Positions 23,901 through 62,466 of a DNA stretch of 64,000 nt are shown one piece after another. A model generated the notes under the pieces. It was given only the letters and a program-made list of their open reading frames with translations, had not been told where the DNA came from and made no database searches. The DNA lies in contig NC_054699.1 of assembly GCF_016097555.1 (NCBI RefSeq), positions 4,612,666 through 4,676,665 on the forward strand, written 5' to 3'. A program made the position numbers and the translations under genes. How positions within the stretch are numbered: position 1 is the first letter of the stretch; the number at the start of each line of letters is the position of its first letter. This DNA comes from Gigantopelta aegis. Its lineage: Eukaryota; Mollusca; Gastropoda; Neomphalida; Peltospiridae.

Positions 23901-26900
23901 AAGACAAACATAGTGGTGAACCGATTATCTCCCCCTTGTCACCTGATTAACTTGAACTATAGATAGACAAACATAGTGGTGAACCGATTATCTCCCCCTT
24001 GTCACCTGATTAACTTGAACTATAGATAGACAAACATAGTGGTGAACCGATTATCTCCCCCTTGTCACCTGATTAACTTGAACTATAGATAGACAAACAT
24101 AGTGGTGAACCGATTATCTCCCCCTTGTCACCTGATTAACTTGAACTATAAATAGACAAACATAGTGGTGGTCAGGATTTCTGTCAAGAGGGTACACAGG
24201 GTAAAACTGGCTAAAATCTTTGAAAGTAACGGATATATTTCTAGAATTTTTATAGTAAGAGAACTGCTGTTTAAAAGTTGACAAAGTACATGCAATGCAG
24301 TGTCCAATTTAAAATGACTACAAATCCATTACCATGTAGATGGTGCCTCGGTGGTGTAGTGGTTATGCCATCGAACTTGAGGCTGGTAGGTACTGGGTTC
24401 ATATCCCACCTGAGGAAATGGTGGATTTTTCATGCCAGTACTGACACCAACCAAGAGTGAGTGCACTGCTAGACACAATGGGTAGGTGTAAGGCCACATA
24501 CACCGAGTTTCACCCACTTCACGGGTGCGATTATGAGTGCTTCTCCTGAGTGTATGACCCCACAAAGGGGATGATTATCCAGCATGCACTGCAGGTTCTG
24601 TGTACCCCGGACGTGGGTGATACCGAGATAGCTCAACTGACAGCAAATGTGGAGCGAAATGGAAATACTGTTGTTTCACCATTCATCTCATCATCATCCA
24701 TGTTTGTAATGTCCAAAAAACAAAAAATATCTTTGTCTATGTGTTAACTGTTTGTGGTGTTTATTAAAAAAAAAAAAAAAATTAAAATGTAGTAAAGGCA
24801 CTTATGGTCTGTTTTGTTTTTATTATGTAACGAGGTGGTATTTTAGTGATTTTAAGCTACAGTTACTGATCCAAAGTATGAAGCCACTGATTAAAACTCT
24901 ATGCATGTGTGTTTGTACCCTAAAATAATGTTCTGGCAGAAAGCCTGGCTATTAGAACCTCCTGAATGTTTTCATCTGGACATAATGTAAGGTAAATCAG
25001 CTCCAAATACTCACGGCCCCCAGTGATGTGACAACACTTCTCCGTAAAATCTTGTTAGTGAGGCTGGCCATGGATGAAACGGCAGCTGAAACACACAATT
25101 CAGTCAGTATTGGAATGGAATGAAATGAAACCTCGGTACATTTTAAACTACCGCTATTTGATGTCCAATATATGATAATCACAACAGATGGGGGGATAGA
25201 ACACAGTTCCACCACAAGTCATAGGCTAATTTTACTCATTTTGTCATGGTATACTGAGCTCATTTGGTAACATTTTCAATAATCATATAACCTGTATTAC
25301 TATTCGAAAGAGGACCCACTATTTCAATTGCAATGAAAGTACCGGTACACAGCAGCCAGGATATTTCTCTCTCACAAAACAGCTGTCTTCTATTGGTCAA
25401 TCTATGAAATTGTACATTATCAAATAATAGTTTCTTTTCAACTCTTCATTGATGCTCTATGTCATCAACAGCTTACCTGGCACACATTCAGGGAACATTT
25501 GATTTCAAAATTTTGATTAACAGCAGTTCTCTCAGTATGAAAATTAATTAGCAAATAGTATATAACATTTTAGAATTCAGTAGCAATGTCTGAAACTTTC
25601 ATTATGTGTCTGTGATAAATAAGTACATTTTAATTGATCCCACATATAACATTTGCATAATTAACAGAAAATATCGGAATTCTAATACATTGCCAACTGC
25701 ATATAAAATGTTCATTGCATTTTAATTCTAATCGTGATCTACTACTAAAGAAGGTGCAGGACGTTAGCCCAGTAGTAAAGTGCTCTCTTGATGCGTGGCC
25801 GTTCTAGAACCGATCCCTGTTGGTGGGCCCATTGTGCTATTTCTCGTTCCAACCAGTGCACCATGACTGGTATATCAAAGGCTGTGGTATGTGCTATCCT
25901 GTCTGTGGGATGGTACATATAAAAGATCCCTTGCTGCTCATTGAAAAGAATAGTTTGTGAAGTGATGACAGCAGGTTTCCTCCCTCAATATCTGTGTGGT
26001 CCTTAACCATATGTCTGACGCCATATAACCGTAAGTAAAATGTGTTGAGTGCATTGTTAAATAAAACATTTCCTTGTTTCCTTGATACTGAAAAAAAATG
26101 CCCAAGACATATTTCTCAGTGATACTTTCTAAATGACAAACCTCCACTTATGTACAGGGCTGCCAACTGCTCCTTGCCCAGCAAATTAAGAGCTACAGTT
26201 GAGAATGACCACAGGACGTACATATTGCAAGCAAAATGTATAAAACTTATATGACTGAAGGCAGAAAGCACCATAGAAACCACAGATGAATCTGAAATAA
26301 AATTTTAAAAATCATAATCATTTAATGATATATCATTAAAAAGTTAACCATAAAACCAACTGTTTTATGTAATTCAACTTATAAAAAAAAAATTATAATT
26401 ATTACTGGCCCCAATTTTATTTACTGAATTAATTTTATCATGAAAAAATATATGTATTAAAATACTCATGATTCTAGTGCTGTTCAGTATATAGAGTAGA
26501 ATTTCACCGAGTCGAACTTGGAAGGGTTGAATGCACTGCAACTCTCGAACCAAAAAGTAAGTCCCGAGTTAGACTTACATGATGTTGACCGAATGGTTAG
26601 GTCCAACTACTCGGACTTTCTTGAGCTCTGACGGGGTTCGAGTAAACAGGACTCAACTGTATTTAGTTTATCACAGTGACAGAGATACCCCATGGAATAT
26701 TTTCCACCTCCAACATTGTAGGATATGTCTTTTGATCTTTTATTCATGATTTTGTACAATTGAAACCACAGTCGTTGTAATACAAATGGACTCTCACAGA
26801 AAGTCACTTAATATTCTCTATATATATCTATGTACTACAGTGTTTGATATCCCACACATTGAGAACCAATTGGAATATGAAAACAGACAACAGAACAATG

Positions 26901-29900
26901 CATGCCTTGAACAAAGCAAGAAAAAAAAAAAAAAAACCACCAACAGCTTACTAGGATGGCAAGAGAAGTACTTGATGAGAAAGGGGTGCATTGTGGGTAA
27001 TTTCCACAGCATCAAGATCAAGCCGTTGAAAGCTATCAGTCCAGTGACAATCTTCTCACCTGATGACAAACGGTTCCACATAGAGTTTATCTGAAAAGAT
27101 TAATGGAGTTTTGTTATGAAAAATAAGCATTCTTTGATGGAAAGGAAGGAAGGAAATGTTTTATTTAACGATGCACTCAACACATTTTATTTTACAGTTA
27201 TATGGTGTCAGACATATGGTTAAGGACCACACATATATTGAGAGACAAAACCTGCTGTTGCCACTTCATGGGCTACTCTTTTCCGTTAGGAGCAAGGGAT
27301 CTTTTATATGCACCATCCCACAGACAGGATAGTACATACCATGGCCATACCATGCCCCCACCCCAATCCCCAAATGTTAGTGATAAACTCTATCTTCCTC
27401 TTTAGGTGACATATCTGATCATTATTATTATTTAGAAAAAATTGTATTAAAGTAAAGTAGGGCTTGTAAATTTTTTAAATCACTGATCCCATGGCTAGTG
27501 GATTTTATAAAACAGCCTTTGATATATAATTTGTGGTGCACTGGTTGGGAAGGAAAAAAACACACAGAGAATGGGTGCACTGAGATGGTTCGATCCTTTG
27601 ACACAAGCACCTCAGGTGAGCGCTCTACCAACTGAGCTAGATCCCGTCCTCTCGTGATGATGAATATGTTTTAAAAATAAAAACAAAATTATTTTGCATG
27701 TTTGTGATAAAAATAAATTATAATTGCAAATGAAAGAAAAATGAGGCCAATTGTTCCTATATATTTTCCCCCAGCATGATATTTACAGTACTCAGTTTTA
27801 AAGAGACAGACCCTAGTTTTTAAATACTAAGGCATATTGTTCAGTATTAGAGCCGTTATGATCACTGAAATCAAACATTACTTATATTTTATTGTTTAAA
27901 TTTATGGATTTCTGTACAACCGAAATATTTCTGGTCATCCTGGTGTTTCTAATACCACAAAATGCATTTTTAATATTTTTAAAAATGCATGTGCGTCTGA
28001 GAAATAACGGTTACGGAGTCGAGCTCTAGTTAGTTGTTAAGGATATTTCCCTGTTCCAGCATCAGAGACTCTTGTTTCATACTACTGTAAAATTATCCAA
28101 GTGTGTTACAGGTTTGAAGATTAACTAAACTTAGTGTCCAGTTTTACGGGTTGAAACTAGGGTCTACTGCTTTAAGTTATCTGTTTAATCTCACTTGTGA
28201 TCTAAATCCAAAATTCTTCTGTGGTATATACCCGACTACCTGGTCACGTGCTTTCCCCATGCCTTTCAATATCTGGTGTGCATGTGCCCTTATACACTCA
28301 TACTGCCAGATGGTGGCACCAGTAAAACTGAGGCCACAAACCTAAAGAAAATAAAATATAATTAAATATTGTTAGTGCTAATTTTTTACATTTTGTAATG
28401 TTTTAGCTCTAGTGCTTAAGACATCACACACACACAGGGTTTACCTCAGGATTTTTGTTAACGAGTTTTGGCAAAAATGTTGGATGTAAACTGAGCCCTC
28501 ATAGGGAGAGAAAATGCTTTGTTAAGAACTTATAAATTGATATTTAATTAATATTTATTTACATGTGTAATGGAAAATCACTTCCCCTGCCCATCATTAT
28601 GACCCACCAAAAAATCCACACACACACATTTGTTTGACACATAGGAGTTAAAACTTTGTTTTGTTTAACGACATAACTAGAGCACTTTGATTAATTAATC
28701 ATCAAAACAATGGATGTCAAACATTTGTTAATTGTGACATGAAGTTTTAAGAGGCTACCTGCTACATTTTTACTTTAATTGTGACAGGAAGTTTTAAGAG
28801 GCTACCTGCTACATTTTTACTTTAATTCTGACATAAAGTTTTAAGAGGCTACCTGCTACATTTTTACTATAATTGTGACAGGAAGTTTTAAGAGGCTACC
28901 TGCTACATTTTTACTATAATTGCGACATGACGTTTTAAGAGGCTACCTGCTACATTGTTACTTTAATTGTGACATGAAGTTTTATGAGGCTACCTGCTAC
29001 ATTTTTACTTTAATTGTGACAGGAAGTTTTTAGAGGCTACCTGCTTACTTTAATTGTGACAGGAAGTTTTTAGAGGCTACCTGCTACATTTTTACTTTAA
29101 TTGTGACAGGAAGTTTTATGAGGCTACCTGCTACATTTTTACTTTAATTGTGACAGGAAGTTTTAAGAGGCTACCTGCTACATTTTTACTATAATTGTGA
29201 CATGAAGTTTTAAGAGGCTACCTGCTACATTTTTGCTTTAATTGTGACAGGAAGTTTTTAGAGGCTACCTGCTTACTTTAATTGTGACAGGAAGTTTTTA
29301 GAGGCTACCTGCTACATTTTTACTTTAATTGTGACAGGAAGTTTTTAGAGGCTACCTGCTACATTTTTACTATAATTGTGACAGGAAGTTTTTAGAGGCT
29401 ACCTGCTACATTTTTACTTTAATTGTGACAGGAAGTTTTTAGAGGCTACCTGCTACATTTTTACTTTAGTAGCACAGGATCTTTTATACAGTGGAACTCC
29501 TCTAAACCGGACACCCAGTAACCAAGTAAAATGTCTGGTTTTAGAGGTGTCCAGTTTAGAGAGGTTCTCTTCTGTACAGATATTTAAAAAGGGGTCACGA
29601 AAAACATCCAGTTTTTAGGGAATTCCAGTTTACAGAGGGGTCCAGTTTTGAGAGGTTTCACTGCATGTATTTTCCCACAGACAGGACAGCACATACCACA
29701 ATCTTTGATATACTTGTCGTTGTGCACTGAGGGGACAGGAAAAAACCCAATCAGAGTGTGGTTCCACCAAGAGGATTTGATCCTTTGATCCAAGCACCTT
29801 AGGTGAGCACCCTACCAACTGAACTAAATCCCTCCTGTACACGTATTGACCAAGACACTACTGGCACACCCATTTTTGTACACATACCGTAATTTTGTTC

Positions 29901-30178: not shown

Positions 30179-30207
30179 CTGTTGAATAGAAGAATAAAGT
30201 CATATAT

Positions 30208-31190: not shown

Positions 31191-31203
31191 AGTGGGGAAC
31201 AAT

Positions 31204-31400: not shown

Positions 31401-31411
31401 TTAAATTATAT

Positions 31412-32345: not shown

Positions 32346-32349
32346 GTAA

Positions 32350-32737
32350 AGTTTGTTTTATTTAACGATGCCACTAGAGCACGTTGATTTTTGATCTTAT
32401 CATTGGCTATTGGACGTCAAACATATGGTCATTCTGACATTGTTTTTTAGAGGAAACCCACTGTCGTCACATAGGCTACTCTTTTATGACAGGCAGCAAG
32501 GGATCTTTTATTTGCACTTCCCACAGGCAGGACAGCACAAACCATGGCCTTTGTTGAACCAGTTATGGATCACTGGTTGGTGCAAGTGGTTTACACCTAC
32601 CCATTGAGCCTTAAAGAGCACTCACTCAGGGTTTGGAGTCAGTGTCTGGATTAAAAATCCCATGCCTCGACTGGGATCCGAACCCAGTAGCTACCAGCCT
32701 GTAGACCGATGGCCTAACCATGACGCCACCGAGGCCG
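32350..32737 (-). mobile_element. SINE, head 2 + tail B
   Basis: Tail B at left (gtttgttttatttaacgatg), core in the middle, head 2 at right (gggatccgaacccagtagct, cctaaccatgacgccaccga). Same head as the 40579 copy but a different tail. Confidence 0.8.
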
Positions 32738-35515: not shown

Positions 35516-35609
35516 CAAAAGATCCCTTGCTGCTGATCGAAAAGAGTAGCTCATAAAGTGGCGACAGCGGGTTTCCTCTCTCAATATCTGTATGGTCCTT
35601 AACCATATA

Positions 35610-37101
35610 TACTCTTCAAAAAAAGAAACGCAAAAGGGTACAAATGGGTTATAACTCCGATTTTATGTTTCCTACCGGTTCATGCTTTGTGAATATAAGG
35701 TCATTGCATGTCCCAAACACATTCTCACGGTTACATTCGATAAAACGCAGCTACTGTACAATAAAGTTCCAAAATGTGAATATTCGCAAAAACGCAGCCA
35801 CGTGCAAACCATGTCACCACTGCACGTGCGTTGTCTGCACGTGCAACATGAACACCGACAGTATAAAAGTGCAGGGTGTTCGCTTGCCTGGCCTCTGTAT
35901 CTGGCCGACAGTTGACAATCCAGGACATGCCACGTCTCAGTGAACCGCAGAGAAACGATGCCATCGGCCGACTAGACGCAGGCGAATCCAGAACGGCCGT
36001 TGCCAGGGCATTCCATGTGTCCCCAAGCACCATCTCCAGACTGTGGGACCGTTACCAGCAACATGGATCAACACGTGACCTCCCTAGATCCGGTCAACCA
36101 CGGGTCACTACCCCCGGGCAGGACCGCTACATCCGGGTACGCCACCTTCGGGAACGATTGACTACTGCCAACTCCACAGCCGCAGCAATACCAGGTTTGC
36201 GCAGGATATCCGACCAGACCGTACGGAACCGCCTACGTGAGGTAGGAATTCGTGCCAGATGTCCAGTTCGAGGTGTCATCTTAACACCACAACACCGTCG
36301 ACTCCGACTGCAGTGGTGCCAGATTCATCGACAATGGCCTCAACTGCGATGGAGACAGGTGTGGTTCAGTGACGAGTCCCGATTTCTGCTCCGACGTCAT
36401 GATGGAAGATGTCGCGTGTATAGGCGTCGTGGTGAACGTTATGCGGCAAACTGCGTGCAGGAAGTGGACAGATTCGGCAGGGGTAGTGTCATGGTGTGGG
36501 CAGCCATCTCATACACTGGCAGAACTGACCTGGTCCACGTGCAGGGCAACCTGAATGCACAGGGCTACATTGACCAGATCCTCCGGCCACACATCGTTCC
36601 AGTTATGGCCAACGCCAACGCAGTGTTCCAACATGACAACGCCAGGCCTCACACAGCACGTCTCACAACGGCTTTCCTACAGAACAACAACATTAATGTC
36701 CTTCCTTGGCCATCGATATCACCGGATTTGAACCCAATTGAGCATCTATGGGACGAGTTGGACCGACGCCTGCGACAACCACAGCCCCAGACCCTGCCCG
36801 AGCTGGCAGCAGCCTTGCAGGCCGAGTGGGCCACCATCCCCCGGGACGTCATCCGTACTCTGGTTGCTTCAATGGGCAGGCGGTGCCAGGCAGTTGTCAA
36901 CACACGTGGAGGCCACACCCGGCATTGACTCCAGATGACCTTGACCTTGGTGGTGTGTCCTATCACTTACTCACAATGGACTAGAGTGAATTGTGAACAA
37001 TCCTGCAACATTTGGTAATGATCGGACTCACCATTCAATAATGAAATCAATTCTCCAAATGTTACGACAATGTGGTTTTGCGTTTCTTCTTTTGAAGAGT
37101 A
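35610..37101 (+). mobile_element. Tc1-like DNA transposon, apparently intact
   Basis: 1492 bp. Terminal inverted repeats of 26 bp (35610-35635 and 37076-37101) differ at one position; each starts TACTCTTCAAAA and includes AAGAAACGCAAAA. It is flanked by TA-rich sequence consistent with a TA target duplication, and is inserted in a SINE. It encodes a full-length transposase. Confidence 0.92.
35927..36928 (+). CDS. Tc1-like DD34E transposase
   Basis: 333 residues from ATG at 35927 (MPRLSEPQRNDAIGRLDAGE) to TGA; an upstream in-frame GTG at 35876 is not a plausible eukaryotic start. The N-terminal helix-turn-helix (AVARAFHVSPSTISRLWDRY) and a second paired-like segment bind the TIRs. The catalytic core has WFSDESRF, then HDNARPHTA, then DLNPIEHLWDEL. 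The last Asp and Glu are separated by 34 residues, the Tc1 signature. No stop or frameshift interrupts it, and the length matches active Tc1 transposases (about 340). GC is clearly higher than the surrounding spacer. It catalyses cut-and-paste transposition at TA sites. Whether it is active today cannot be told from one copy. Confidence 0.95.
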   Translation: MPRLSEPQRNDAIGRLDAGESRTAVARAFHVSPSTISRLWDRYQQHGSTRDLPRSGQPRVTTPGQDRYIRVRHLRERLTTANSTAAAIPGLRRISDQTVRNRLREVGIRARCPVRGVILTPQHRRLRLQWCQIHRQWPQLRWRQVWFSDESRFLLRRHDGRCRVYRRRGERYAANCVQEVDRFGRGSVMVWAAISYTGRTDLVHVQGNLNAQGYIDQILRPHIVPVMANANAVFQHDNARPHTARLTTAFLQNNNINVLPWPSISPDLNPIEHLWDELDRRLRQPQPQTLPELAAALQAEWATIPRDVIRTLVASMGRRCQAVVNTRGGHTRH

Positions 37102-37169
37102 TATATCTGACGCCATATAACCGTAAATAAAGTGTTTTGAGTGCGTCGTTAAATAAAACATTTCCTTCC

Positions 37170-39970: not shown

Positions 39971-39974
39971 GCAC

Positions 39975-41130
39975 ACTGAGAGCAGTATAAGTTCAGCCAA
40001 CGAACATTTTCCTAATGTTTGCGAACTATCTGGACATTGGGTTTAACGTGAAGTGCATAAACCAGTCTAGTGGATGTTTTTTGGGGTGTCTGCTCGGTCT
40101 GGCTGAAATCGGCCAAGGATAGCCAACTTGTCTTTTGGTCCTGAACTAGCATGTGTATTGAAACTGACACGCATTGTCGGTCCGTTTTTGTTATTTTGGT
40201 TCAAAGACTTTACAAAGTTAAAATAACAAGCTACAGATATTTCAGACTTTGCTTTCATATATGTTTTTAAATACTTGCCATTAAAACTAATAACCGTGAT
40301 TATTAAAATAAGCAAAGATTATTATGCTGTATTCTGGATGACAGTGCTTCTCTTTACCGGTCGCTAGATCGCTATATAGTACGCTAATTGAATATTTGGT
40401 ATTATTATTATGTTTGCGGTGTCGGATAGATTCTATAACCGTTTGTTCACATCAGAAGATAGAAAACAGCTTAGCCAAAATTTTAGTCACTTGCAAATTT
40501 TATTAGCCATTTTTTTTAAATTGCTACCGACAGCATGAGCCCTGTGATTATCAGCATCAAGGTGTTCTTTAGCTGTCTACCGGCGTCGTGGTTAGGCCAT
40601 CAGTCTACAGGCTGGTATGTACTGGGTTCGGATCCCAGTCGAGGCATGGGATTTTTAATCCAGATACCGACTCCAAATCCTGAGTGAATGCTCCGCAAGG
40701 CTCAGTGGGTAGGTGTAAACCACTTGCACCAACCAGTGATCCATAACTGGTTCAACAAAGGCCATGGTTTGTGCTATCCTGCCTGTGGGAAGTGCAAATA
40801 AAAGATCCCTTACTGCTAATCGGAAAGAGTAGCCCATGTAGTGGCGACAGTGGGTTTCCTCTCAAAATCTGTGTGGTCCATAACCATATGTCTGATGCCA
40901 TATAACCGTAAATAAAATGTGTTGAGTGTGTCATTAAATAAAACGTTGCTTTCTTTCTTTAGCTGTCTGGCAGCTTGCACCATCCTCACTTTTCTTGACA
41001 ATTATATGTTTATCTGCTGTGAATTTTTGTATTGGAATTAGAGTGACCACCATCTTAAAGGTCTGCCCTCTTGCTGCTACTTCATACTGAAATGTGTGAC
41101 CAGTCTTTGACCTGGATGAATAATACTAGT
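39975..41130. repeat. Segmental duplication, copy 1 (carries a SINE)
   Basis: Matches 41378-42112 from gagagcagtataagttcagc through gacctggatgaataatact with many small differences. The main structural difference is the SINE at 40579-40954. Confidence 0.88.
40579..40954 (+). mobile_element. SINE, head 2 + tail A, with 14-bp target duplication
   Basis: Flanked by the direct repeat ttctttagctgtct (40565-40578 and 40955-40968). The paralogous segment has the unoccupied site (41942-41955), so both ends are defined exactly. The element is 376 bp: head 2, shared core, tail A. Confidence 0.93.
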
Positions 41131-42498: not shown

Positions 42499-42765
42499 TC
42501 AACTATTGTATTATATATTATTTTTGTTAAATAGTCATACTTGCATAATAATTATGGGAAACGGCATTTCGGTTCTGTGATTTTACCGACATAGTACCGG
42601 AAACGATCATATAATTGATGTGTAACTTGTATCGCTGATTAGTTACTGCTGAAATTAATGTCCTACATTGTCCATTGTATTATGTATGGTCAATCTAGGG
42701 TGCTTTCACATCTGCTGCTTTCACATCTGCTGCTTTCACATTGTTCTTGCAATACTGTGTGTATG

Positions 42766-45087: not shown

Positions 45088-45118
<31 letters not shown>

Positions 45119-48100
45119 GACAAACACATACACACACACACAATGTAGCTTGTCATAAATGAAAGAAAAACAAGATGCTTTCTGTTCTCACAATCTACTA
45201 ACACCAGGTTCATACTGTACAAATTCTGCTACATTATTTTCTTGTTTGTCTTGGACATTATATATTTGTGTGTAATTTAGATTTTCTTTGCTTTGCTTTC
45301 AGCCAAACACTCTAGTCCAGTCCCTAAGCCATTCCTGGAACTAGCGCACTCCAAGGACATCAAAGGTACAGTGTGTGACTCAACAATAATATCAACTAGC
45401 AAGCCATAGTTGTTTTCTTAAAATCTTAAAGAAAAATTGTTTTGTTGGACGAAATACTCAACACTTTTCATTTCATTTCAACTTATTTTCATGCTTATAT
45501 CCAATTAAGGTTAAGCATGCTGTCCTGGGCCCACATACCTCAGCTGTCTGCGCAGGACAGTGGGTTATTTGTTAGTGGTTAGTGAGAGAGAAGAGGGTTT
45601 AGGGGCCTTACACGTACCCATTGAGTCGTTAAAAGTTACTCTGGGTGGGAGCTTGTACCAGCCTTATGTCCGATGGCTTAACCACAACACCACCCAGGCC
45701 GGTTTCACTTTTTAATTAGTTATATGGCATCGGACACATTGTTGAGGACCACACCGATAGTGAAAGGAAACCTGCTTCTGCTACTCCATGGGCTACTTTC
45801 TTTTATCAGCAGCAAGGATAGTCCATACCATGGCTTTTGTTACACCAGTTGATGAGCACTGGAAGGAAGAAGGAAGGAAATGTTTTATTTAACGACGCAC
45901 TCAACACATTTTATTTACAGTTAACTTCGTGGGCTACTCTTTTTGAATAGCAGCAAGGGATCTTTTATATGCACCATCCCACAGACAGAACAGCACATAC
46001 CACAGCCTTTGGTATACATGTACCAGTTGTCGTGCACTGGTTGGAACGAGAAATAGCCCAATGGGCCCACCAATGGGGATTGATCCCAAACCGACCGTGC
46101 ATCAAGCAACCGCTTACCATTGGGCTACGTCCTGCTCCCAATAGTCTTTAATTACAGTCGGTAGGCCTAACAAAGCAAAATGGTATCATATTACCACATA
46201 GTATACCCCCACCCACAATAGTCTTTAATTACAGGCAGAAGCCTAACAAAGCAAAATGGTATCATATTACACACGCCCCCACCCATAATAGTCTTTAATT
46301 ACAGCCAGAAGCCTAACAAAGCAAAATGGTATCATATTACACATGCCCACCCCAATAGTCTTTAATTACAGTCAGAGGCCTAACAAAGCAAAATGGTATC
46401 ATATTACACATGCCCCCCCACCCCAATAGCCTTTAATTACAGTCAGTAGGCCTAACAAAGCAAAATGGTATCATATTACCACATACCCCCACATACAATA
46501 GTCTTTAATTACAGGCAGAAGCCTAACAAAGCAAAATGGTATTATACTACACATGCCCCCACCCCAATAGTCTTTAATTACAGTCAGAGGCCTAACAAAG
46601 CAAAATGGTATTATACTACACATGCCCCCACCCCAATAGTCTTTAATTACAGGCAGAAGCCTAACAAAGCAAAATGGTAGCATACTACACATGCCCCCAC
46701 CCCAATAGTCTTTAATTACAGTCATAGGCCTAACAAAGCAAAATGGTAGCATATTACACATGCCCACCCCAATAGTCTTTAATTACAGTCAGAGGCCTAA
46801 CAAAGCAAAATGGTATCATATTACACATGCCCCCACCCCAATAGTCTTTAATTACAGTCAGAGGCCTAACAAAGCAAAATGGTATTATACTACACATGCC
46901 CCACCCCAATAGTCTTTAATTACAGTCAGAGGCCTAACAAAGCAAAATGGTATTATACTACACATGCCCCACCCCAATAGTCTTTAATTACAGTCAGAGG
47001 CCTAACAAAGCAAAATGGTAGCATATTACACATGCCCACCCCAATAGTCTTTAATTACAGGCAGAAGCCTAACAAAGCAAAATGGTATCATATTACACAT
47101 GCCCCCACCCCAATAGTCTTTAATTACAGTCAGAGGCCTAACAAAGCAAAATGGTATTATACTACACATGCCCCACCCCAATAGTCTTTAATTACAGTCA
47201 GAGGCCTAACAAAGCAAAATGGTATTATACTACACATGCCCCACCCCAATAGTCTTTAATTACAGGCAGAAGCCTAACAAAGCAAAATGGTATTATACTA
47301 CACATGCCCCACCCCAATAGTCTTTAATTACAGTCAGAGGCCTAACAAAGCAAAATGGTATTATACTACACATGCCCCCACCCCAATAGTCTTTAATTAC
47401 AGGCAGAAGCCTAACAAAGCAAAATGGTAGCATACTACACATGCCCCCACCCCAATAGTCTTTAATTACAGGCAGAAGCCTAACAAAGCAAAATGGTAGC
47501 ATAGTACCATATTCCTCCACCCACAATGGCCTTTAATTACAGGCAGAAGCCTAACAAAGCAAAATGGTAGCATAGTACCATATTCCTCCACCCACAATAG
47601 TCTTTAATTACAGGCAGAAGCCTAACAAAGCAAAATGGTAGCATAGTACCATATTCCTCCACCCACAATAGTCTTTAATTACAGGCAGAAGCCTAACAAA
47701 GCAAAATGGTAGCATAGTACCATATTCCTCCACCCACAATAGCCTTTAATTGCAGTCAGTAGGCCTAAAAACCGTAATGTGCCCTTGTGAAAAAGAAATA
47801 ATGAGATATTCCATGGGGCTTCTATAAGCGGGGATCCGTAGCATTTGCTACGTTGTTAATCTGGCACTGATGGGCTTGCCAGCAGGGATCATTCATGCAT
47901 GAAGCAAGTGGTTTACCGTTTTCGCCCTTCCTTTAAGTAGATGATATTATATACTGGGGTTTTTTCAGTACCTTAAATTGTGCTGGTACATTTGTATTGT
48001 TAATGAAACATTCCTTTCCTTTCAAACACGCCTTTGTTTGTTTTCTTCAGATCCTTCGGCCCTATATGGCAGCTGTGGTTTGTACAACCTTGGCAACACG

Positions 48101-51100: not shown

Positions 51101-54100
51101 TCGTCATCTATTTCCATCATTCTACCCTCAAAATTAGTTGTAATCCATGTAAAAATGCGTAATGATTCGTTTACAATCCTATATACACAAATGTAGCTCT
51201 TTGGCAGTCATGCTAATATTCTGACATTTTTGTTTAATTCAGGCAAAAACCAACCTGTCGGGTTTGGAATTAGTGTTTGTCATTAATGATTTAAGGAAAC
51301 TAAATCAATCTTAATTCTTCCATAAATTTTTTTTTTCTAATTATAATAAAATATGTTCAAAAAGAATAGAATAAAATATGAATACAGTGAAACTCTAAAC
51401 CGGACACCCTCGGCACCAAGTAAAAAGACTGCTTTTAAGAGGTATCCAGTTTAGAGAGGTTCTCTTCTGTACAAATATTTAAAAGGGGACTATGACAAAT
51501 GTCCGGTTTTGAGGGAATTCCAGTTTACAAAGGGTCCAGTTTTGAGGGAATTCCAGTTTACAAATGTCCGGTTTTGAGGGAATTCCAGTTTACAAAGGGT
51601 CCGGTTTTGAGGGAATTCCAGTTTACAAAGGGTCTGGTTTTGAGGGAATTCCAGTTTACAAATATCCGGTCTTGAGGGAATTCCAATTTACAAAGGGTCC
51701 GGTTTTGAGGGAATTCCAGTTACCAAAGGGTCCGGTTTTGAGGGAATTCCAGTTTACAAAGGGTCCGGTTTTGAGGGAATTCCAGTTTACAAAGGGTCCG
51801 GTTTTGAGGGAATACAAAGGGTCTGGTTTTGAGGGAATTCCAGTTTACAAAGGGTCACGTTTTGAGGGAATTCCAGTTTACAAAGGGTCCAGTTTTGAGG
51901 GAATTCCAGTTTACAAAGGGTCCAGTTTTGAGGGAAATTGTAAAGTGTAACAATACGAATTATAACAGAATCTACATAATACACATATTTAAACAAATAC
52001 ATTGTGTAAAGTGTAACAATATGAATTATAACAGAATCTACATAATACACATATTTAAACAAATACATTGTGTAAAGTGTAACAATATGAATTATAACAG
52101 AATCTACATAATACACATATTTAAACAAATACATTGTGTAAAGTGTAACAATATGAATTATAACAGAATCTACATAATACACATATTTAAACAAATACAT
52201 TGTGTAAAGTGTAACAATATGTATTATAACAGAATCTACATAATACACATATTTAAACAAATACATTGTGTAAAGTGTAACAATACGAATTATAACGGAA
52301 TCTACATAATACACATATTTAAACAAATACATTGTGTAAAGTGTAACAATACGAATTATAACGGAATCTACATAATACACATATTTAAACAAATACATTG
52401 TGTAAAGTGTAACAATACGAATTATAACGGAATCTACATAATACACATATTTAAACAAATACATTGTGTAAAGTGTAACAATACGAATTATAACGGAATC
52501 TACATAATACACATATTTAAACAAATACATTGTGTAAAGTGTAACAATACGAATTATAACGGAATCTACATAATACACATATTTAAACAAATACATTGTA
52601 AAGTGTAACAATACGAATTATAACAGAATCTACATAATACACATATTTAAACAAATACATTGTGTAAAGTGTAACAATACGAATTATAACAGAATCTACA
52701 TAATACACATATTTAAACAAATACATTGTGTAAAGTGTAACAATACGAATTATAACAGAATCTACATAATACACATATTTAAACAAATACATTGTGTAAA
52801 GTGTAACAATACGTATTATAACAGAATCTACATAATACACATATTTAAACAAATACATTGTGTAAAGTGTAACAATACGAATTATAACAGAATCTACATA
52901 ATACACATATTTAAACAAATACATTGTGTAAAGTGTAACAATACGAATTATAACAGAATCTACATAATACACATATTTAAACAAATACATTGTGTAAAGT
53001 GTAACAATACGAATTATAACAGAATCTACATAATACACATATTTAAACAAATACATTGTGTAAAGTGTAACAATACGAATTATAACAGAATCTACATAAT
53101 ACACATATTTAAACAAATACATTGTGTAAAGTGTAACAATACGAATTATAACAGAGTGTAACAATATGAATTATAACAGAATCTACATAATACACATATT
53201 TAAACAAATACATTGTGTAAAGTGTAACAATATGAATTATAACAGAATCTACATAATACACATATTTAAACAAATACATTGTAAAGTTTAGGCTAGCACT
53301 GCAGTTATTTTGTGTAATTTTCTTTTGGCAGGTTGTTTGTTTTGGTTGCCACCACATGTCTGTGATGTACGAGCCATTTATGTATCTTTCTTTGCCAATT
53401 CCACGAGCTATGGAACGCCAAATATGTGAGTTAATGTTTCTGTTTGTAATGGTCAAAAATATTTAAATTAACTTTTTAAATATGTAATCTACAGTGATTA
53501 TTTGAAAATTACCTGTATTATTATTTTTTCTAAACTTTTATCTTTTGTCTTCTTTTATGAAGTAAAACCATGATATATAGGTATTACTTTTTTTCGACGG
53601 CAATGACGTCAACTTTTACCTTTAAAGTTTAACATTAAAGATTCGCATTTAAATCAGTTTGTCACAAATTATAAGACCTAGATCAATGAAACTTGGTTTA
53701 TAGTTTCATACAGGTATTATAGATGTTCTTCACAGTGAACTGAACATTTTTAGGATAGGCGAGATCAGGGAGTGCACTTGGGAGTTTTGGGGGGTTTTCA
53801 CTTGCTATTCGGGCAAGTTGTGTCAGCACTTTAACTTGCCTGTGCATTTTGTTAGTAGCCTGAATTTTAGTTTTAAAAACTAAAAAAATAGTTTTGTACT
53901 TGAATAATGGGCATACGCAACTCTGTTTTAAAGCACCATGTATATATCAATGTTTATAAAGAGGTAGTGGTTATGCAAATAGCTAGCTACGAATGTGCGA
54001 AATTGTGGTCACCAGGTGGGCAACTCGTATTAAGGTTTTGAGTTGCCCGATGTTGTTTTCACTTGCCTTAGGTGACTGGACAACCGTAAAATGCACACCG

Positions 54101-57100: not shown

Positions 57101-60100
57101 AACATACACAGACTTGAACAGGATAATTTCCACAAATACTTTCTTCCCCACCCCCTCCCATTTGTGGTATGTGTAGCTCGTGACAATTGAAAATTATTTC
57201 TCTAGCGACATAAACGTGCTATGAAATGGAAGGTCATTTAATATGCTATAAATCCCACTGGTTGTTTTCAGATTTGCCTTTCTCCAGCCTCCGTGGTTGA
57301 TGACTTTTTACCTCTTGCCAACTCGGGGAACCACAAAGCCAAACAGCGGTGAGTGTTACTGTTTGTGTCCTGGTGCCCGTGACAACGGTATCAGTTTTTG
57401 TGTTTAACTCCACATTAATGTTTCATGTTTAGCTGTATTTCTCACAAACTGTAAAGTTAAAAGTTTGTTTTGTTTAACGAAACCACTAGAGCACAGTGAT
57501 TTATTAATCATCGGCTATTGGATGTCAAACACTTGGTAATTCTGACTCTTAGTCATCAGAGGAAACCCACTACATATTTCCATTAACAGCAAGGGATCTT
57601 TTATATGCACTTTCCCATAGACAGGAAAGCACATACCACAGCCTTTGACCAGTTGTGGTGCACTGGTTGGAACAAGAAAAAGCTCAATCAGCGAGTGCTC
57701 GATCGACTGAGCTAAATCCGGCCCCTCACAAACTGTAAGTCCTACATCAAGAATATAGATTGATAGTTATAGATATCAATGTCATCGTAATGAATTCTTT
57801 TTTAAATAAATTTTTTGTAAAGTTTAATTGAATGTTTTTTTTAAATAAAAGTTTTGATTAATTTTTAAAATAAAATTTCTTGTAAAGTTACATTTTTTAT
57901 ATTATTTGTTTAAACCTTGTATTTTGCTTATAGGCTTAGAAAAGAATTTTACTTCGCATATTTGTTTTCTGTTGAGTCACTCTAAAAGACTACCGGTACA
58001 CCAGTTCTGTTGCTTGAAAACCCTATAATATCTTCTTTTTTATACGGGGCGGGACGTAGCCCAGTGGAAAAGCGCTCACTTGATGCACGGTCGGTCTGGG
58101 ATCGATCCCCGTCGGTGGGCCCATTGGGTTATTTCTCATTCCACCCAGTGCACCATAACTGGTACATCAACAGCCGTGGTATGTACTACCCTGTCTGTGG
58201 GATGGTGCATATAAAAGATCCCTTGCTGCTAATTGAAAAGAGTAACCCATGAAGTGGCAACAGCAGGTTTCCTCTCTCATTATCTGTGTTGTCTTTAACC
58301 ATATGTCTGACGCCATATAACCGTAAATAAAATGTATTGAGTGCGTCGTTAAATAAAACATGTCTTTCCTTTCAGAGTGATTGCCATACCAGTTGCCTTC
58401 CGACATGAAACATCGGACAAGAAGTTACACTTGTTTGGTCATCCGAACATCCTGTATGTGGCTAATCACATGACTGGAAGACAGGTGTATGAGAAAGTTG
58501 ACGCACTCTTGCCGTATCCTGTTGTCTACACAATAGTCTTGACCGATGGGCAGGTTAGTATCTCCATTAACATAGATCATGTTTCTTTGTGGCATCATTT
58601 TTTCTTTTGTATCAAAGTCTTCTTTTTTTAACTTTTCTTTTAATCAGCCCACAGAGACTTTGTTGTTGTCAGGGATGGGGCCAAAGATGTGTCAAAATGA
58701 CTCTCTTTTTTTGTTGAAAAGATTTATGAATTTTTGGCATTAAAAGTTGTTAGTTTGATGAAAACTCCACTGTATATCTATGCGTGTAATTTGATTTGAA
58801 GGTCATTGATTGGGATCATCTTGGGGGGTAGGGGGTTGCATTTAGCTCAGTCGGTTGAGTGCTCACCTGAGGTGTTTGCATCACAGGATCGAACCACCTC
58901 AGTGAATCAATTGATTGAGCTTTTTCTTGTTCCAACCAGTGCACCACAACCGGACAAAGGCCGTGGTATGTGCTTTCCTGTCTGTGGCAAAGTGCATATA
59001 TAAAAGATCCCTTGTTGCATTAGGAAAATGTAGTGGGTTTCCTCTGTTGACTTCGAATCACAATTACCAAATGTTTGACATCCAATAGCCGACGATTAAT
59101 TAATCAATGTGCTCTAGTGGTGTCGCTAAAAATAAAAAAAAATAAAAAAAATTATCTTAGGGAAATTTAATGTAGAAATTATAATCTTTGATTCACTTTG
59201 TTAATAAAGAATCATAGCTCTGGTTAGAAATGTTAAATTAGCCATGCTAACCTACCATTAATCTTAAAACTGCACGATACAAAGCAATGGGGAGAAACCA
59301 TTTTCAATAACTCCCTTTTGTTTTCTCAAATGAGTAATTTGTTTTTAAAAAAAATAATTTTGGCTTATTTTAATGTTTCAATTACTCATGACCAGTAAAC
59401 AGTCTGAAATATAATTTCAGTTTAAAAAAAAAAATGGACTTGTTTTTATTGCAGGGTCTTCATTGCTCCCGGTGTATATATACAGCTCACTGCAGCGGCT
59501 GTGCCTTGGACCGAGAAGGGGAGGTAACTCTGCAGCCCAGCGACCATCTAACGGTGCAAGTCCAGAACATCCTTGATGATCAGATTGAAGATGTTGAGAG
59601 AATTCACGAAGATGAATCGATGGAGAATTTAAGACAGAACGAACAAATAACAATATACGACTGTTTTCGGGCTTTCACACAAAGGTACATTTAAGACATC
59701 CACTCACAGGTTTAGCACATCCAGATCCATTGTTTAATCAGTAGATAACGGGAAAATTATCTTTAAATCTTAAGTACAGAGCCTCACTTACATTGTTTTC
59801 GCTTCCTATATATTGTACAAGTTTATTTTACACAAGAATATATATGCCATGATTGTGGTATGTTCTTGCACAAAATAAACGATTGCAATAAATAGGAAGC
59901 AAGGTTCTGTATTTATTACATACCTTCTTTTACGTTTTACAAATCGGTTTTTAATTTAACATAAATACACTTTTTTAAATCTATGATCAATCCTCCTTTC
60001 ATGGATTTACTTAACGTTGACAATTATACTCTGCGGAAATCTTGTGTAATGTTTTAAATACGATGTGACGTAATCTGTAAATCATACATGACATCAGTAA

Positions 60101-61843
60101 CAAAACAACGCTAACTCTAGTAAAAATATAAAGGGAATTCCCCATTTACAAGTTCCTGTTCAGATCGCACTTATGTGTGATACAAGATAAATTTATCACA
60201 CGGTTTAAATTTTTTATCACTATGGTAAGATTGAATAGGCGCTGTAGATCCTGAAATTAATGTGATCATCATATTAATGCGAAAAATGCAAGTTTGTGTT
60301 ATTCGCATTAATAATAATATGCATTTATTTCTGTTATTGATTGTTAAAGTGTTGTGTGTTGATTTCAGTGAAGTTCTTGATGAACACAACCCGTGGTACT
60401 GTCCGCAGTGTAAGCAGAATCAGTGTGCCAAGAAGACGATGACCGTGTGGCGCTATCCAGACTGGCTTATTGTGCACCTCAAAAGGTAATGCTGGTTTAT
60501 AAAGTACCTCACACTCTTATTTTACATCTTAAAAGGTAACACTGATTTTAACCTTCTGACTAGGGGCGAGGCGTAGCCAAGTGGTACAGCGCTCGCTTGA
60601 TGCACGGTCGGTTTGGGATCGATCCCCGTCAGTGGGCCCACTGCGCTATTTTTCGTTCCAGCCAGTGCACCACGACTGGTACATCAAAGGCTGTGGTATG
60701 TACTATCCTGTCTGTGGGATGGTGCATATAAAAGATCCCTTGCTGCTAATTGGAAAGAGTAGCCCATAAAGTGGTGACAACAGGTTTTCTCTCTCAATAT
60801 CTGTGTGGTCCTTAACCATATGTCCAATGCCATATAACCATAAATAAAATGTGTTGAGTGCGTTGATAAATAAAACATTTCCTTCATTCCTTCCTTCCTC
60901 TTATTTTAACCTTCTGACTACTGCAGGTGAGATATCTCAGCCAACTTCACGGAAGTCAACAAACTGTACACTGTATACAGTAAATTGACCAATTCCATTT
61001 CCTGCCGTTTTGCACATTGCACACGGCACATACTGTAAATAATAATAGAACAGCAAATAGATTAATGGAGAGTAATAGCTAGTTTGTGGCAAGTAATTCA
61101 CTTGACAACAAAAGTGGAATGTCGTGATCATGTTCAGGATTCAATAGCTGATTGTAACAGCTAATTTGATAATAAATTTTAACGTTTTTACCAACAACAA
61201 AAATCATGCAATATTGGGATATGAATCGTAGTTTGTTTCCAAAACAAAATTCTGGTAAAAGCAATGGAAATAAATATTGGACATGTGGCAACAAATGCCT
61301 GTAAATAAATGTGGCTATCGATTTTTTGCCCAATTTCAATCAACATTAACTGATCTAAAAGATCATAAAAATAATACGAAGTCAAATATAAACTTTATTT
61401 TATGTATTTATAAAAAGAATTAAATGGATATATGTGAGTGAAATTTATAAATTTGTAAAAAAACCCACCCAAAAACACCCCACCAATATGTTTTTTTGGT
61501 GTGAAAAATCAATCCAGTAGTCGGAAGGTTAAAATACTGGACTGTCTAAGTTTTAAATGGAAGAAACCGACCTACCCTCCTAAGTTTTGGTTTTTGGCTT
61601 GTTCTATGAAACACACTATTTTAGGGGTTTTGTTTTTTAGGACCAAGTGTCTGTATTTATTCTTTTGTGTTGCTAATAAAAAATTATTGTTTTTCAGATT
61701 TGTCTTTCATGAGTTTTCCAGTCTGAAGATTGACGACCGAGTGATCTACCCGCACAAGAATCTAGATCTCAGAGATTTCATCTCAGGACCAGCAACTAAA
61801 GATTTGACCTATGACCTCTACAGCATTGTCTGTCATTTTGGAG
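44364..61843 (+). CDS. Ubiquitin-specific protease (peptidase C19), thirteen exons, 3' end not found
   Basis: Exons 44364-44544, 45303-45365, 48051-48322, 49363-50967, 53332-53425, 54147-54313, 55052-55717, 56400-56441, 57272-57348, 58376-58553, 59455-59684, 60369-60485 and 61698-61843 join in phase to 1279 codons. USPs are cysteine proteases that remove ubiquitin. The Cys box is YNLGNTCFMNAGLQC; next come QHDCQEFLALLLDTLHEQL, AWEDYIADNNSIV, QFKSTVVCFGCHHMSV and YLSLPIP. An internal ubiquitin-like stretch (VIFVPSNLPPVRYLLNMNKH to YAFEI) and the later CSRC...CSGC and WYCPQCKQNQ finger resemble the USP4/11/15 and USP32 clade. The His box begins with YDLYSIVCHFGG, and the GHYTAY-type end should be in the next exon. 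Two oddities: a disordered insertion of about 450 residues in the catalytic core, and a RING-like finger (CAICLEEL...CSGTFCQSC...CCPIC). ATG 44364 has a good context (gagatgg), but the frame is open upstream in the exon, so earlier coding exons are possible. Family certain, orthologue not. Confidence 0.9.
45303..45365 (+). CDS. USP exon 2
   Basis: 63 bp between tgctttcag and GTACAG: KHSSPVPKPFLELAHSKDIK. Phases match both neighbours. Confidence 0.8.
45438..45860 (-). mobile_element. SINE tail A interrupted by a family C SINE
   Basis: Outer element: ttggacgaaatactcaacac at left, resuming at ttagttatatggcatcggac after about 45705. Inner element 45464-45704 is family C in reverse. Nested insertion, inner younger. 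Confidence 0.75.
45861..46139 (-). mobile_element. SINE, head 1 + tail A
   Basis: Reverse copy from ggaaatgttttatttaacga to the head (taccattgggctacgtcctg). The 68-bp array starts directly at its head end. Confidence 0.8.
46139..47765. repeat. Tandem repeat of about 62-69 bp, about 24 copies, in a USP intron
   Basis: The unit runs aatagtctttaattacagtc, agaggcctaacaaagcaaa, atggtattatactacacatg, then a C-rich ccccacccc whose length varies. Subtypes (gtcagagg versus ggcagaag; tatcata, tattata, tagcata) are grouped. A divergent block with ccatattcctccacccac closes the right end. Confidence 0.93.
48051..48322 (+). CDS. USP exon 3, catalytic Cys box
   Basis: Acceptor ttttcttcag; DPSALYGSCGLYNLGNTCFM then NAGLQCVMASSPLVKFFLEE and on to DYRQ; donor GTAAAA. 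The nucleophile is Cys of GNTCF. Confidence 0.95.
48480..48890. repeat. About 145-bp tandem repeat, 2.5 copies
   Basis: Unit with gcacattaaaggaaatcctt, gtccgggccatatcttcctt and ttcatatagaatc(g/a)tc, repeated from about 48608 and 48764, plus a partial diverged copy at 48480-48560. Confidence 0.8.
49020..49165. repeat. Fold-back element
   Basis: Left arm aggatattaaatgagcttcc, catttcgtatcatgtttatg; right arm cataaacataatacgaaatg, ttactgagtttaatatccta. Arms of about 50 bp are near-perfectly inverted. Relatives lie at 16665 and 57190. Confidence 0.8.
49363..50967 (+). CDS. USP exon 4 with large disordered insertion
   Basis: 535 codons after ttgtttttgcag. It begins HDCQEFLALLLDTLHEQLSM and ends DKAWEDYIADNNSIVVQSFQ, GQFKST. 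Between them about 450 residues are Ser/Asn/Asp/Glu-rich, with short internal repeats (NSKTYQSALTSSANSKFSQS) and acidic clusters near the end. In related USPs this interval is about 40-50 residues. Confidence 0.93.
51385..51942. repeat. MITE-derived 33-bp tandem repeat, about 14 copies
   Basis: 51385-51500 matches the left part of the 29488 MITE (cagtgaaactctaaaccgga). From about 51500 the segment gaattccagtttacaaaggg, tccggttttgagg is amplified in 33-bp units. The right MITE end is absent. Units read GSGFEGIPVYK in one frame but are not a gene. Confidence 0.88.
51943..53285. repeat. 66-bp tandem repeat, about 20 copies
   Basis: The unit runs gtgtaaagtgtaacaatacg, aattataacagaatctacat, aatacacatatttaaacaaa, tacatt. 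Variants aacagaa/aacggaa and aatacg/aatatg are blocked. Short deletions occur near 52598 and 53150. Being 22 codons without stops, it keeps long frames open on both strands. The array ends 46 bp before the exon at 53332. Confidence 0.95.
53332..53425 (+). CDS. USP exon 5
   Basis: After tttcttttggcag: VVCFGCHHMSVMYEPFMYLS then LPIPRAMERQI; donor GTGAGT. The CxxC is the first pair of the USP zinc finger. Confidence 0.92.
54147..54313 (+). CDS. USP exon 6 (internal ubiquitin-like segment)
   Basis: After gtaattctgtag: VIFVPSNLPPVRYLLNMNKH then DNIEKLKKELLTVISRHDCD and on to SRIL; donor GTAGGT. Confidence 0.9.
55052..55717 (+). CDS. USP exon 7 (end of ubiquitin-like segment, spacer, start of RING-like finger)
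   Basis: 222 codons after tttatttacag: DDNILLRYVNDSSRKIYAFE, a Thr/Ser/Asp-rich disordered spacer, then RSCAICLEELSDSDLLVHSC and SGTFCQSCLE; donor GTAAAC. Confidence 0.9.
55826..56063 (-). mobile_element. SINE tail A, 5' truncated, with 13-bp target duplication
   Basis: Direct repeats agattgttatgga at 55813-55825 and 56064-56076 bound a copy that lacks its tRNA head, so it was truncated at insertion, as expected for LINE-driven retroposition. Confidence 0.88.
56400..56441 (+). CDS. USP exon 8 (42-bp microexon)
   Basis: Between cacatttcag and GTGAGT: MSMKHSSNTTYCCP, 14 codons in phase 0, contributing the CCP of the RING-like finger. Confidence 0.85.
56480..56680 (-). mobile_element. SINE tail B fragment
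   Basis: Tail B ttagtttgttttgtttaatg through gtcagacatttgataattat and part of the core; head absent. Confidence 0.7.
56890..57060. repeat. Cluster of short inverted and direct repeats (tatccc/gggata)
   Basis: The motif gggatacca(g/t) or its complement recurs about eight times, including atcccggggat and cccaccgggatacca. It can fold into several short stems. Confidence 0.6.
57272..57348 (+). CDS. USP exon 9
   Basis: After ggttgttttcag: ICLSPASVVDDFLPLANSGN then HKAKQ; donor GTGAGT. It completes the RING-like CPIC pair. Confidence 0.88.
57455..57724 (-). mobile_element. SINE, head 3 + tail B, 14-bp target duplication
   Basis: Direct repeats ctcacaaactgtaa at 57441-57454 and 57725-57738 delimit it exactly. 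Tail B left, core, head 3 right (gatcgactgagctaaatccg). Confidence 0.9.
58046..58372 (+). mobile_element. SINE, head 1 + tail A, abutting an exon
   Basis: Full copy: head gggacgtagcccagtggaaa, B box ggatcgatcccc, core, tail. Its 3' terminus (aaacatgtctttcctttcag) merges with the splice acceptor at 58375. Confidence 0.88.
58376..58553 (+). CDS. USP exon 10
   Basis: VIAIPVAFRHETSDKKLHLF then GHPNILYVANHMTGRQVYEK and on to TDGQ; donor GTTAGT. The acceptor tract comes from the SINE end. Confidence 0.9.
58838..59132 (+). mobile_element. SINE, head 3 + tail B
   Basis: Head 3 in the forward sense (atttagctcagtcggttgag, B box aggatcgaacc), core, tail B ending atgtgctctagtggtgtcgc. Confidence 0.85.
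59455..59684 (+). CDS. USP exon 11 (zinc-finger cysteines)
   Basis: After tttttattgcag: GLHCSRCIYTAHCSGCALDR then EGEVTLQPSDHLTVQV and on to YDCFRAFTQ; donor GTACAT. Confidence 0.92.
60369..60485 (+). CDS. USP exon 12 (second CxxC and HLKRF)
   Basis: After gttgatttcag: EVLDEHNPWYCPQCKQNQCA then KKTMTVWRYPDWLIVHLK; donor GTAATG. IVHLKRF across the junction is a USP hallmark. Confidence 0.95.
60545..61531. mobile_element. TIR element (MITE candidate) hosting a SINE
   Basis: Left attttaaccttctgactact and right agtagtcggaaggttaaaat are 20-bp inverted repeats with one mismatch. The left one is duplicated around the SINE at 60563, so the SINE landed inside the terminal repeat. Confidence 0.7.
60563..60902 (+). 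mobile_element. SINE, head 1 + tail A, 18-bp target duplication
   Basis: Flanked by attttaaccttctgacta at 60545-60562 and 60903-60920. 340 bp, complete: head gaggcgtagccaagtggtac, core, tail aaacatttcctt repeated. Confidence 0.93.
61698..61843 (+). CDS. USP exon 13 (start of His box)
   Basis: After attgtttttcag: FVFHEFSSLKIDDRVIYPHK then NLDLRDFISGPATKDLTYDL and YSIVCHFGG; donor GTGTGG chosen because it cuts where the family continues with GHYTAY. Without splicing a stop follows after VDS. Confidence 0.85.
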
Positions 61844-61856
61844 GTGTGGACAGTTA

Positions 61857-62152
61857 AAAATTTGTTTTGTTTAACAACACCACTAGAGCACATTGATTTA
61901 TTCATCATCGCTTATTGGATGTCAAACACATGGTCATTTTGACACTCACAGAGAGGATACCTGCTACATTTTTTCATTAGTAGCAAGGGATCTTTTAAAT
62001 GCACTATCCCACAGGCAGGATAGCACATACCACTGCCTTTGATATACCAGTTGTAGTGCACTGGCTGGAATGAGAAATAGCTCAATGGGGATCAATCATA
62101 GATTGAACGTGTATCAAGTGAGCACTCTACTACTGGGCTAAGTCCCGCCCCA
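61857..62152 (-). mobile_element. SINE, head 1 + tail B
   Basis: Begins 13 bp after the exon-13 donor: tttgttttgtttaacaacac, core, head ending ctgggctaagtcccgcccc. Confidence 0.85.
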
Positions 62153-62217
62153 TATGAACAGTTCTGTTTTGTTTTTCTTTTTAACTGTTTACAAATTGCA
62201 AGCTTTTATGTTTAAGC

Positions 62218-62466
62218 ACTGGTTGATGCACGCCCATTGGGTTATTTCTTTTTCCAGCCAGTGCACCACAACTTGTATATCAAAGGTGATAGTATGTGCT
62301 GTCCTGTCTATGGGTTGGTGCATATAAACGATCCCTTGCTACTAATGGAAAGATATAGCAGGTTTTCTCTCTAAGACTATATGTGAAAAATTACTAAATA
62401 TTTGACATCGAATAGCCGATGATTAATAAATCAATGTGCTCTTCTGATGTCGTTAAACAAAAGAAA
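62218..62466 (+). mobile_element. SINE, tail B with short head
   Basis: Core ttccagccagtgcaccacaa and tail ending tgatgtcgttaaacaaaaga; only the end of head 1 remains. Confidence 0.75.

Follow-up and report, generated by a model that had tools for sequence, protein, structure and literature searches.

Probable exchange of 3' modules beside a shared core among SINE subfamilies of the gastropod Gigantopelta aegis

We analyzed a stretch of 64,000 nucleotides (nt) from the genome of Gigantopelta aegis (contig NC_054699.1, positions 4,612,666 to 4,676,665 of the forward strand; hereafter the window), which is rich in short interspersed nuclear elements (SINEs). The copies carry one of three transfer RNA (tRNA)-like heads (1 to 3), a core and one of the 3' tails A, B or B2, and our comparison shows that the tail ends were swapped at one precise spot beside the shared core. 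Two core strings occurred 11 and 13 times in the window with at most three mismatches (0.00 and 0.01 times in shuffled sequence), and a core profile of 134 nt, built from six copies and extending into the start of the 3' module, gave 25 matches at E<1e-4. An initial annotation of this DNA had named nine copies, all of which are present to within a few bases, and had placed the system at 25753-62466, a range that is too narrow because the copy at 12322 falls outside it.

SINE copies, their combinations and their heads

The copies in the window, and the profile-defined core region of one of them, are as follows.

25753..26081, + strand: head 1, core and tail A (H1A); no target duplication recognized
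58046..58371, + strand: head 1, core and tail A (H1A); no target duplication recognized
60563..60890, + strand: head 1, core and tail A (H1A); 21-nt target duplication with 1 mismatch
60645..60777, + strand: core region according to the 134-nt profile in this H1A copy; contains the segment ATAAAAGATCCCTTGCTGC
45869..46138, - strand: H1A copy, deleted between the core and the tail A 3' end; directly behind it, on the same strand, lies an older SINE fragment (45706-45874)
5457..5774, - strand: 5'-truncated H1A copy with part of tail A duplicated; 13-nt target duplication TTCAATATGGTAT, read from the sequence
5805-6001: 3'-incomplete head 3 copy, neighbor of the H1A copy at 5457..5774
12322..12596, - strand: head 1 and tail B (H1B), core mostly deleted; no target duplication recognized
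61852..62151, - strand: head 1, core and tail B (H1B); no target duplication recognized
62232..62470, + strand: head 1 (5'-truncated), core and tail B
40576..40957, + strand: head 2, core and tail A (H2A); exact 14-nt target duplication
32347..32733, - strand: head 2, core and tail B2 (H2B); 13-nt target duplication with 1 mismatch
57453..57725, - strand: head 3 (internal deletion), core and tail B (H3B); exact 14-nt target duplication
58832..59139, + strand: head 3, core and tail B (H3B); no target duplication recognized

Combinations, elements, target duplications, near-fixed differences and trees were studied in a 264-kb sample that comprised the window, which had been chosen for these SINEs, and 20 arbitrary 10-kb stretches (round coordinates on large contigs) of the genome, which was searched in 1.15 Gb and 5216 contigs. 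At E<=1e-3 the core profile matched 132 times in this sample, 25 times in the window and 107 times in the stretches. Head and tail were both present in 59 of the 132 matches, and the only combinations were the five that had been proposed (H1-B 16, H1-A 15, H3-B 12, H2-A 10 and H2-B 6), which are thus real and multi-copy. The incomplete matches were headless with tail B (15) or tail A (14), tailless with head 1 (13) or head 3 (6), or had neither end (25). Both a head start and a tail were found in 49 elements, namely 15 H1B, 9 H1A, 9 H3B, 8 H2A, 5 H2B and 3 composites that were first labelled H3+A. Consensus lengths of 312-388 bp, short 3' repeats and a high copy number fit tRNA-derived SINEs. 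The mean divergence of the elements from the respective consensus, counted over all sites, was 3.3% for H2A, 3.1% for H2B, 8.4% for H1A, 10.3% for H1B and 11.7% for H3B.

Scaling from the 107 matches per 200 kb gives about 615,000 core matches genome-wide (437,000-787,000 by bootstrap over stretches), and matches to head, core or tail cover 25,119 of the 200,000 sampled bases (~12.6%), a figure that includes head-2-like matches of another SINE family. We also counted exact genome-wide matches to patterns of 32 letters that joined a head or core motif to a tail motif at the expected spacing. There were 14,720 for H2-A, 5,230 for H2-B/B2, 1,638 for H1-B, 1,069 for H3-B and 5 for H3-A, and reversed-pattern controls gave 0 for all five. 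Such counts are not copy numbers and drop as the age of a family rises, and the head 2 motif was taken from the H2 core subtype, not from the tRNA-like part. The evidence for H1-A is the sample together with similarity matches to the copy at 60563-60862: 40 of 3,397 first-look candidates were scored, and among the 41 matches listed 40 span nearly the whole query at 91-100% identity (the 100% match being the copy itself), the remaining one being a 43-nt piece.

Target duplications with a score of at least 9 flanked 21 of the 49 full-length elements, compared with 3 of 478 mismatched flank pairs, as expected of SINEs. By combination they were found for 3/9 H1A, 5/15 H1B, 7/8 H2A, 3/5 H2B and 3/9 H3B elements and for 0/3 composites. 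At least three exact duplications had been reported for the window, and they are seen at 40576 (14/14), at 57453 (14/14) and at 60563, where 18 consecutive letters are identical within the 21-nt repeat. The duplication at 32347 matches in 12 of 13 positions, and the copies at 25753, 58046, 12322, 61852 and 58832 have scores of 4-6, which is chance level. Since some copies of each of the five combinations carry target duplications as whole units, the mixed combinations are not nested insertions, in agreement with the initial annotation.

Run on the whole window, ARAGORN called one tRNA-like gene (32663-32735), located at a head 2 copy. With default settings it made 8 calls in the sampled sequence. 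Of these, 7 belong to a single type that lacks an anticodon, and at least 5 of the 7 fall on known head 2 positions; the eighth is at a head 1 copy (L023 9101). Among the consensus heads, 1 and 2 were called at relaxed score only. Boxes A and B were recognized in the heads by eye only. The consensus sequences of heads 1 and 3 agree in 77 of 95 ungapped columns, so the two heads may share an old origin instead of deriving from two tRNA captures. With E values of 0.52 and 0.06, the matches of the core to MEG8_1 lay far below the cut-off of that family and were treated as chance.

A second SINE family has a head-2-like head, a different body and a tail that ends in GGATATAAGCACGAAAATAAGTTGAAATGAAA, for example at window positions 6634(+), 8627(-) and 16548(-), and it accounts for 8 of the 11 aligned head-2-like copies without a matched core. 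At 24347(+) a head-2-like head stands on a third body.

Discordant histories of head plus core and of tail

For a separate comparison of 5' and 3' parts the elements were cut after ...GATCCCTTGCTGC, which yielded 43 copies, and a difference was called near-fixed when each side reached at least 75%. In the 5' part, near-fixed differences numbered 0/241 between H2A and H2B and 1/184 between H1A and H1B, against 55/169 between H1A and H2A, 52/169 between H1B and H2B and 16/180 between H1B and H3B. The 3' part gave 35/128 for H2A-H2B and 38/124 for H1A-H1B, against 4/141 for H1A-H2A, 1/131 for H1B-H3B and 18/128 for H1B-H2B. The 5'-part tree of the 43 copies required 2 changes of head label and 12 changes of tail label (500 shuffles: mean 17.3, minimum 11); the 3'-part tree required 2 changes of tail label and 7 of head label (500 shuffles: mean 18.2, minimum 14). 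Label changes and near-fixed differences therefore both indicate that the histories of head plus core and of tail disagree, and full congruence of head and tail phylogenies with the core, which the initial annotation had held against its own proposal, was not what we found.

The discordance comes with a localized switch point, and the two together identify exchange of modules. Head and core are identical between the H2A and H2B consensus sequences (84/84 for the cores) and their tails agree in 111 of 130 positions, while the A tails of H2A and H1A share 135 of 141. The H1A and H2 consensus sequences have 19 letters in common at the end of the core, ATAAAAGATCCCTTGCTGC, and because they agree there the switch of head 2 is placed within these last 19 nt of the core. 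Core subtypes agree in 70-72 of 84 positions between H1 and H2 and in 76-78 of 81 between H1 and H3. Each head thus has its own core subtype, so that the boundary of exchange in these data is the core/tail junction; the "one shared core" of the initial annotation holds in that a common core is present, but not in that it would be the same behind every head. Similarly, the tail of H2B is of the B type, as had been proposed, but with 18/128 near-fixed differences from B it is a distinct subtype, B2, which rules out B as one single tail for head 2.

The short terminal repeats of tails A and B differ (TTCC vs AACTTT), and A, B and B2 are nevertheless diverged homologues with a common 3' hairpin and compensatory changes. 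In global alignments compared with 1000 dinucleotide shuffles, A-B scored 24 (shuffle mean -1.7, maximum 12.5), A-B2 26 (maximum 10) and B-B2 66.5 (maximum 19), and none of the 1000 shuffles reached any of these full-length scores. Without the last 35 nt, A-B2 still scored 10, above the shuffle maximum of 6. The outer stem of the hairpin, GACRYC/GRYGTC, has standard pairs in 87.2% of 234 cells in 39 tails (shuffled mean 83.5; 0/500 as high), and pair 15-71 is A-U in 18 tails, G-C in 15, G-U in 2 and unpaired in 4. The covariation score of 0.327 and the 17 double-changed cells were each reached by 0/500 shuffles, and slid controls gave at most 0.146. The sixth pair of the outer stem is broken in 18 of the 39 tails, 15 of which are A tails. 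An inner stem was compared by anchored positions in 33 of the 39 tails; its middle pair is A-U for 12/13 A tails and G-C for 18/20 B tails. We read this structure as a conserved recognition hairpin, which a LINE (long interspersed nuclear element) enzyme may bind.

Candidate partners and routes of exchange

Reverse transcriptases were sought as RVT_1 matches; 150 of 12,774 candidates were scored, all above the cut-off, and 19 3' flanks were examined, a small set biased to the best-scoring matches whose LINE status is presumed from match length and the reading frame behind. Three of these flanks contain tail matches on the sense strand at E<=1e-3, all more than 1 kb behind the end of the reading frame. 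They are, in L043, a SINE copy including the core 2.8 kb behind; in L035, a match of 46 nt at 2.5 kb that follows a tandem array; and in L036, 70 nt at 2.3 kb. Other tail matches in LINE flanks were on the opposite strand or at chance level. Tail ends and orientations were counted in a 354-kb set that is not unbiased, as it includes stretches chosen for head 1 plus tail A matches (L002-L011) and reverse-transcriptase flanks (L032-L050). No LINE was found at the 32 of its 145 core-less tail ends that were examined, and the repeat upstream of some of these ends looks like a mobile element that landed among degenerate tail repeats.

On balance we consider it probable that the copies form one SINE superfamily in which 3' modules were exchanged at the core end between SINEs, and that the recombinants amplified separately. 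A unit comprises a tRNA-like head, putatively an RNA polymerase III promoter, a conserved core of ~84 nt and a 3' module of ~130-150 nt, in which a short repeat closes the unit after the hairpin and GTTAAAYAAAACA. This module would be the recognition site of a LINE reverse transcriptase, and the RNA would be copied into new genomic sites, which gain target duplications. There are three lineages of head and core (H1, H2 and H3) and three homologous 3' modules (A, B and B2), which would have been newly combined by exchange at the core end, for head 2 within the 19-nt segment, most likely through reverse transcriptase switching between two SINE RNAs, or else through strand transfer of complementary DNA (cDNA) at this homology. 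H1A, H1B, H2A, H2B and H3B would then have amplified as separate subfamilies, and tail A would have passed from the older H1A to the younger H2A.

A number of observations weigh against this account or parts of it. Neither tail A nor tail B was found at the LINE's own end in any of the 19 presumed LINE 3' flanks, which leaves LINE dependence as a supposition. ARAGORN made no tRNA call in the right position on the head 3 consensus, Rfam gave a tRNA match of 13.5 bits with an E value of only 6 for one head 1 copy, and for one copy each of heads 2 and 3 Rfam returned no tRNA match. Once the last 35 nt are removed, the score of the A-B alignment drops to 10, inside the shuffle range (maximum 12). 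Two of the five covariation measures of the hairpin lie within the shuffle range, the pairs with a double change (3) and the further pair types (9) being matched by 81 and 86 of 500 shuffles, and RNAalifold returned no consensus structure for the 39 tails. Three of 46 elements lacked the anchor and were left out of the near-fixed-difference and tree analyses. Finally, RNA template switching and DNA-level exchange leave an identical sequence trace, and units of head 3 with tail A make clear that new joins can arise by insertion into resident copies as well.

It is conceivable, if doubtful in our view, that tails were grafted at the DNA level, with the cDNA of an A-tailed SINE inserting into a resident copy, its 5' end being joined at or near the homologous core position and the unit being amplified later. 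The five exact genome-wide matches of head 3 plus tail A speak for such events, as all 5/5 have leftover head 3/tail B sequence behind tail A, and in L054 a 14-nt duplication (1 mismatch) lies inside the core and the inserted H2A-like piece begins at the matching core position. L058, on the other hand, is simply a nested case, in which an H2A copy with an internal deletion sits between 13-nt duplications, and L055, L056 and L057, which have no clear target duplication, look like insertions with loss of the target between the core and the insertion site; L056 and L057 must have a more complex history because their cores contain head-1-like letters. The pattern itself selects in-register spacing, and at off-register spacings of equal width there was 1 match vs 5 in register, too few to tell a difference. 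Among 135 3'-complete SINE pieces of the 354-kb set, 10 are followed within 40 nt by an internal SINE piece on the same strand and 1 by one on the opposite strand (3/135 are followed by a same-strand piece that starts at its head), a bias that grafting would explain but that an endonuclease preference for SINE sequence could cause as well. Resident copies thus do receive insertions, most of them in the same orientation, and new head-tail joins can result, but no graft was seen amplified, neither any of the five units nor head 3 plus tail A as a whole (5 exact matches vs 1069 for H3-B). That the combinations were altogether born in this way, an A-tailed SINE being spliced by homology onto a resident core with the old tail left behind and such grafts seeding subfamilies, we regard as unlikely; the genome would in that case still hold intermediates.

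The initial annotation had suggested that one SINE lineage captured different LINE tails. Independent capture of 3' ends from at least two LINE families would fit the different terminal repeats of tails A and B, and exchange of SINE tails with LINEs is stated as a route in PMC8010984. We nevertheless judge it quite improbable, given that A, B and B2 are homologous with a common hairpin and compensatory changes, that tail A is nearly the same in H2A and H1A, and that no LINE with either tail appeared in the flanks of 19 of the 150 scored reverse-transcriptase matches. Least probable by far is that no exchange took place and that plain subfamily divergence, nested insertions or assembly errors were read as combinations. 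Nested or adjacent insertion does account for head 3 plus tail A and for the three composite "H3TA" elements, and a dimer family of head 3 plus tail A was accordingly rejected: in two of the three composites a separate target duplication flanks the A-tailed element (window 5457-5774; L015 6999-7325), and in the third (window 27144-27650), where no duplication was recognized, the cores are ~140 nt of other sequence apart. For the five main combinations this explanation is contradicted by the incongruent trees, the 0-1 near-fixed differences up to the switch point, the target duplications around whole units and the 1,069-14,720 exact matches for each of four counted combinations. Exchange between SINEs at the core end thus remains the reading that we favor, and counts over the whole genome offer a way to test RNA template switching against DNA-level grafting.

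Related systems and other repeats

The initial annotation took these elements for a candidate undescribed system. Exchange of parts between SINEs is already published, and what we describe is a clean new instance of a known form of SINE module exchange. Mollusc SINEs with common central domains and exchanged parts were reportedly described by Matetovici et al. in 2016 under a title with the words "playing jigsaw"; the likeness to our elements is one of description only, and the domains are reportedly named MESC and Snail. Nin-DC SINEs reportedly go back to Piskurek and Jackson in 2011. The tails of stringent-type LINEs are recognized by a 3' hairpin, as reportedly in the eel LINE/SINE pair of Kajikawa and Okada. 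Our elements resemble that pair in having a conserved 3' hairpin followed by a short repeat and differ from it in that no LINE with this hairpin was found in the 19 flanks examined.

Nin-SINEs have been described in limpets (Lottia), and PMC11121367 gives them a tRNA-type head with boxes A and B, a central domain and a length of 369 bp, which makes them similar gastropod elements by description only. In Helicoverpa armigera, HaSE1 and HaSE2 have common 5' parts and different 3' ends, and HaSE3 and HaSE1 have common 3' parts, which was explained by template switching (PMC3272025). The likeness lies in a common head and central domain before differing 3' ends and in differing heads on one body and tail, but for those elements a LINE partner has been identified (HaRTE1), and one of their 3' regions is similar to a DNA transposon (PMC3272025). 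In our case, unlike that of HaSE, every pairing of two heads with two tail types is present and the switch point is localized. Tail and module exchange is also among the hypotheses for the role of conserved domains mentioned in PMC6887750. Head/tail exchange in SINEs is usually inferred from few consensus sequences. Here, one genome holds heads 1 and 2 each with both tail types, the switch of head 2 mapped to 19 nt, two young recombinant subfamilies of similar divergence (H2A and H2B) and rare units that resemble tail grafts in older copies.

DNA strings taken from the core end and the tails had 0 hits in a text search of papers, and a scan of viral contigs gave 0 matches. The L001 match in other genome contigs fell in a bacterial contig with no SINE sequence around it.

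Several further repeats were seen in and beside these SINEs. At window 42765-42945 a head 1 fragment is fused straight to tail A with no core between them. An element with inverted ends TACTCTTCAAAAAAAGAAACGC / GCGTTTCTTCTTTTGAAGAGTA at 35609-37100 interrupts a tail A copy, splitting it into halves at 35516-35608 and 37101-37171 that bear a short T/A-rich duplication, and L031:5730-6128 is 97% alike to this element over ~399 nt of its 3' part. The 47-nt tandem array at 28620-29548, whose unit resembles the start of tail B and which ends in a tail B copy (28646-28754), is apparently a small satellite made from a SINE tail. A row of degenerate tail-B-like units with an apparent mobile element inserted occupies L013 2450-4300, and sequence resembling it is found at about 8860-9302 of the window. 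Other tandem arrays in the window lie at 51805-53315 (66-nt units), 19020-20241 (71), 23461-24296 (63) and 63599-63968 (37), and the direct repeats of 300 nt at 22636-22935 and 23112-23411, whose starts are 476 nt apart, are 100% identical.

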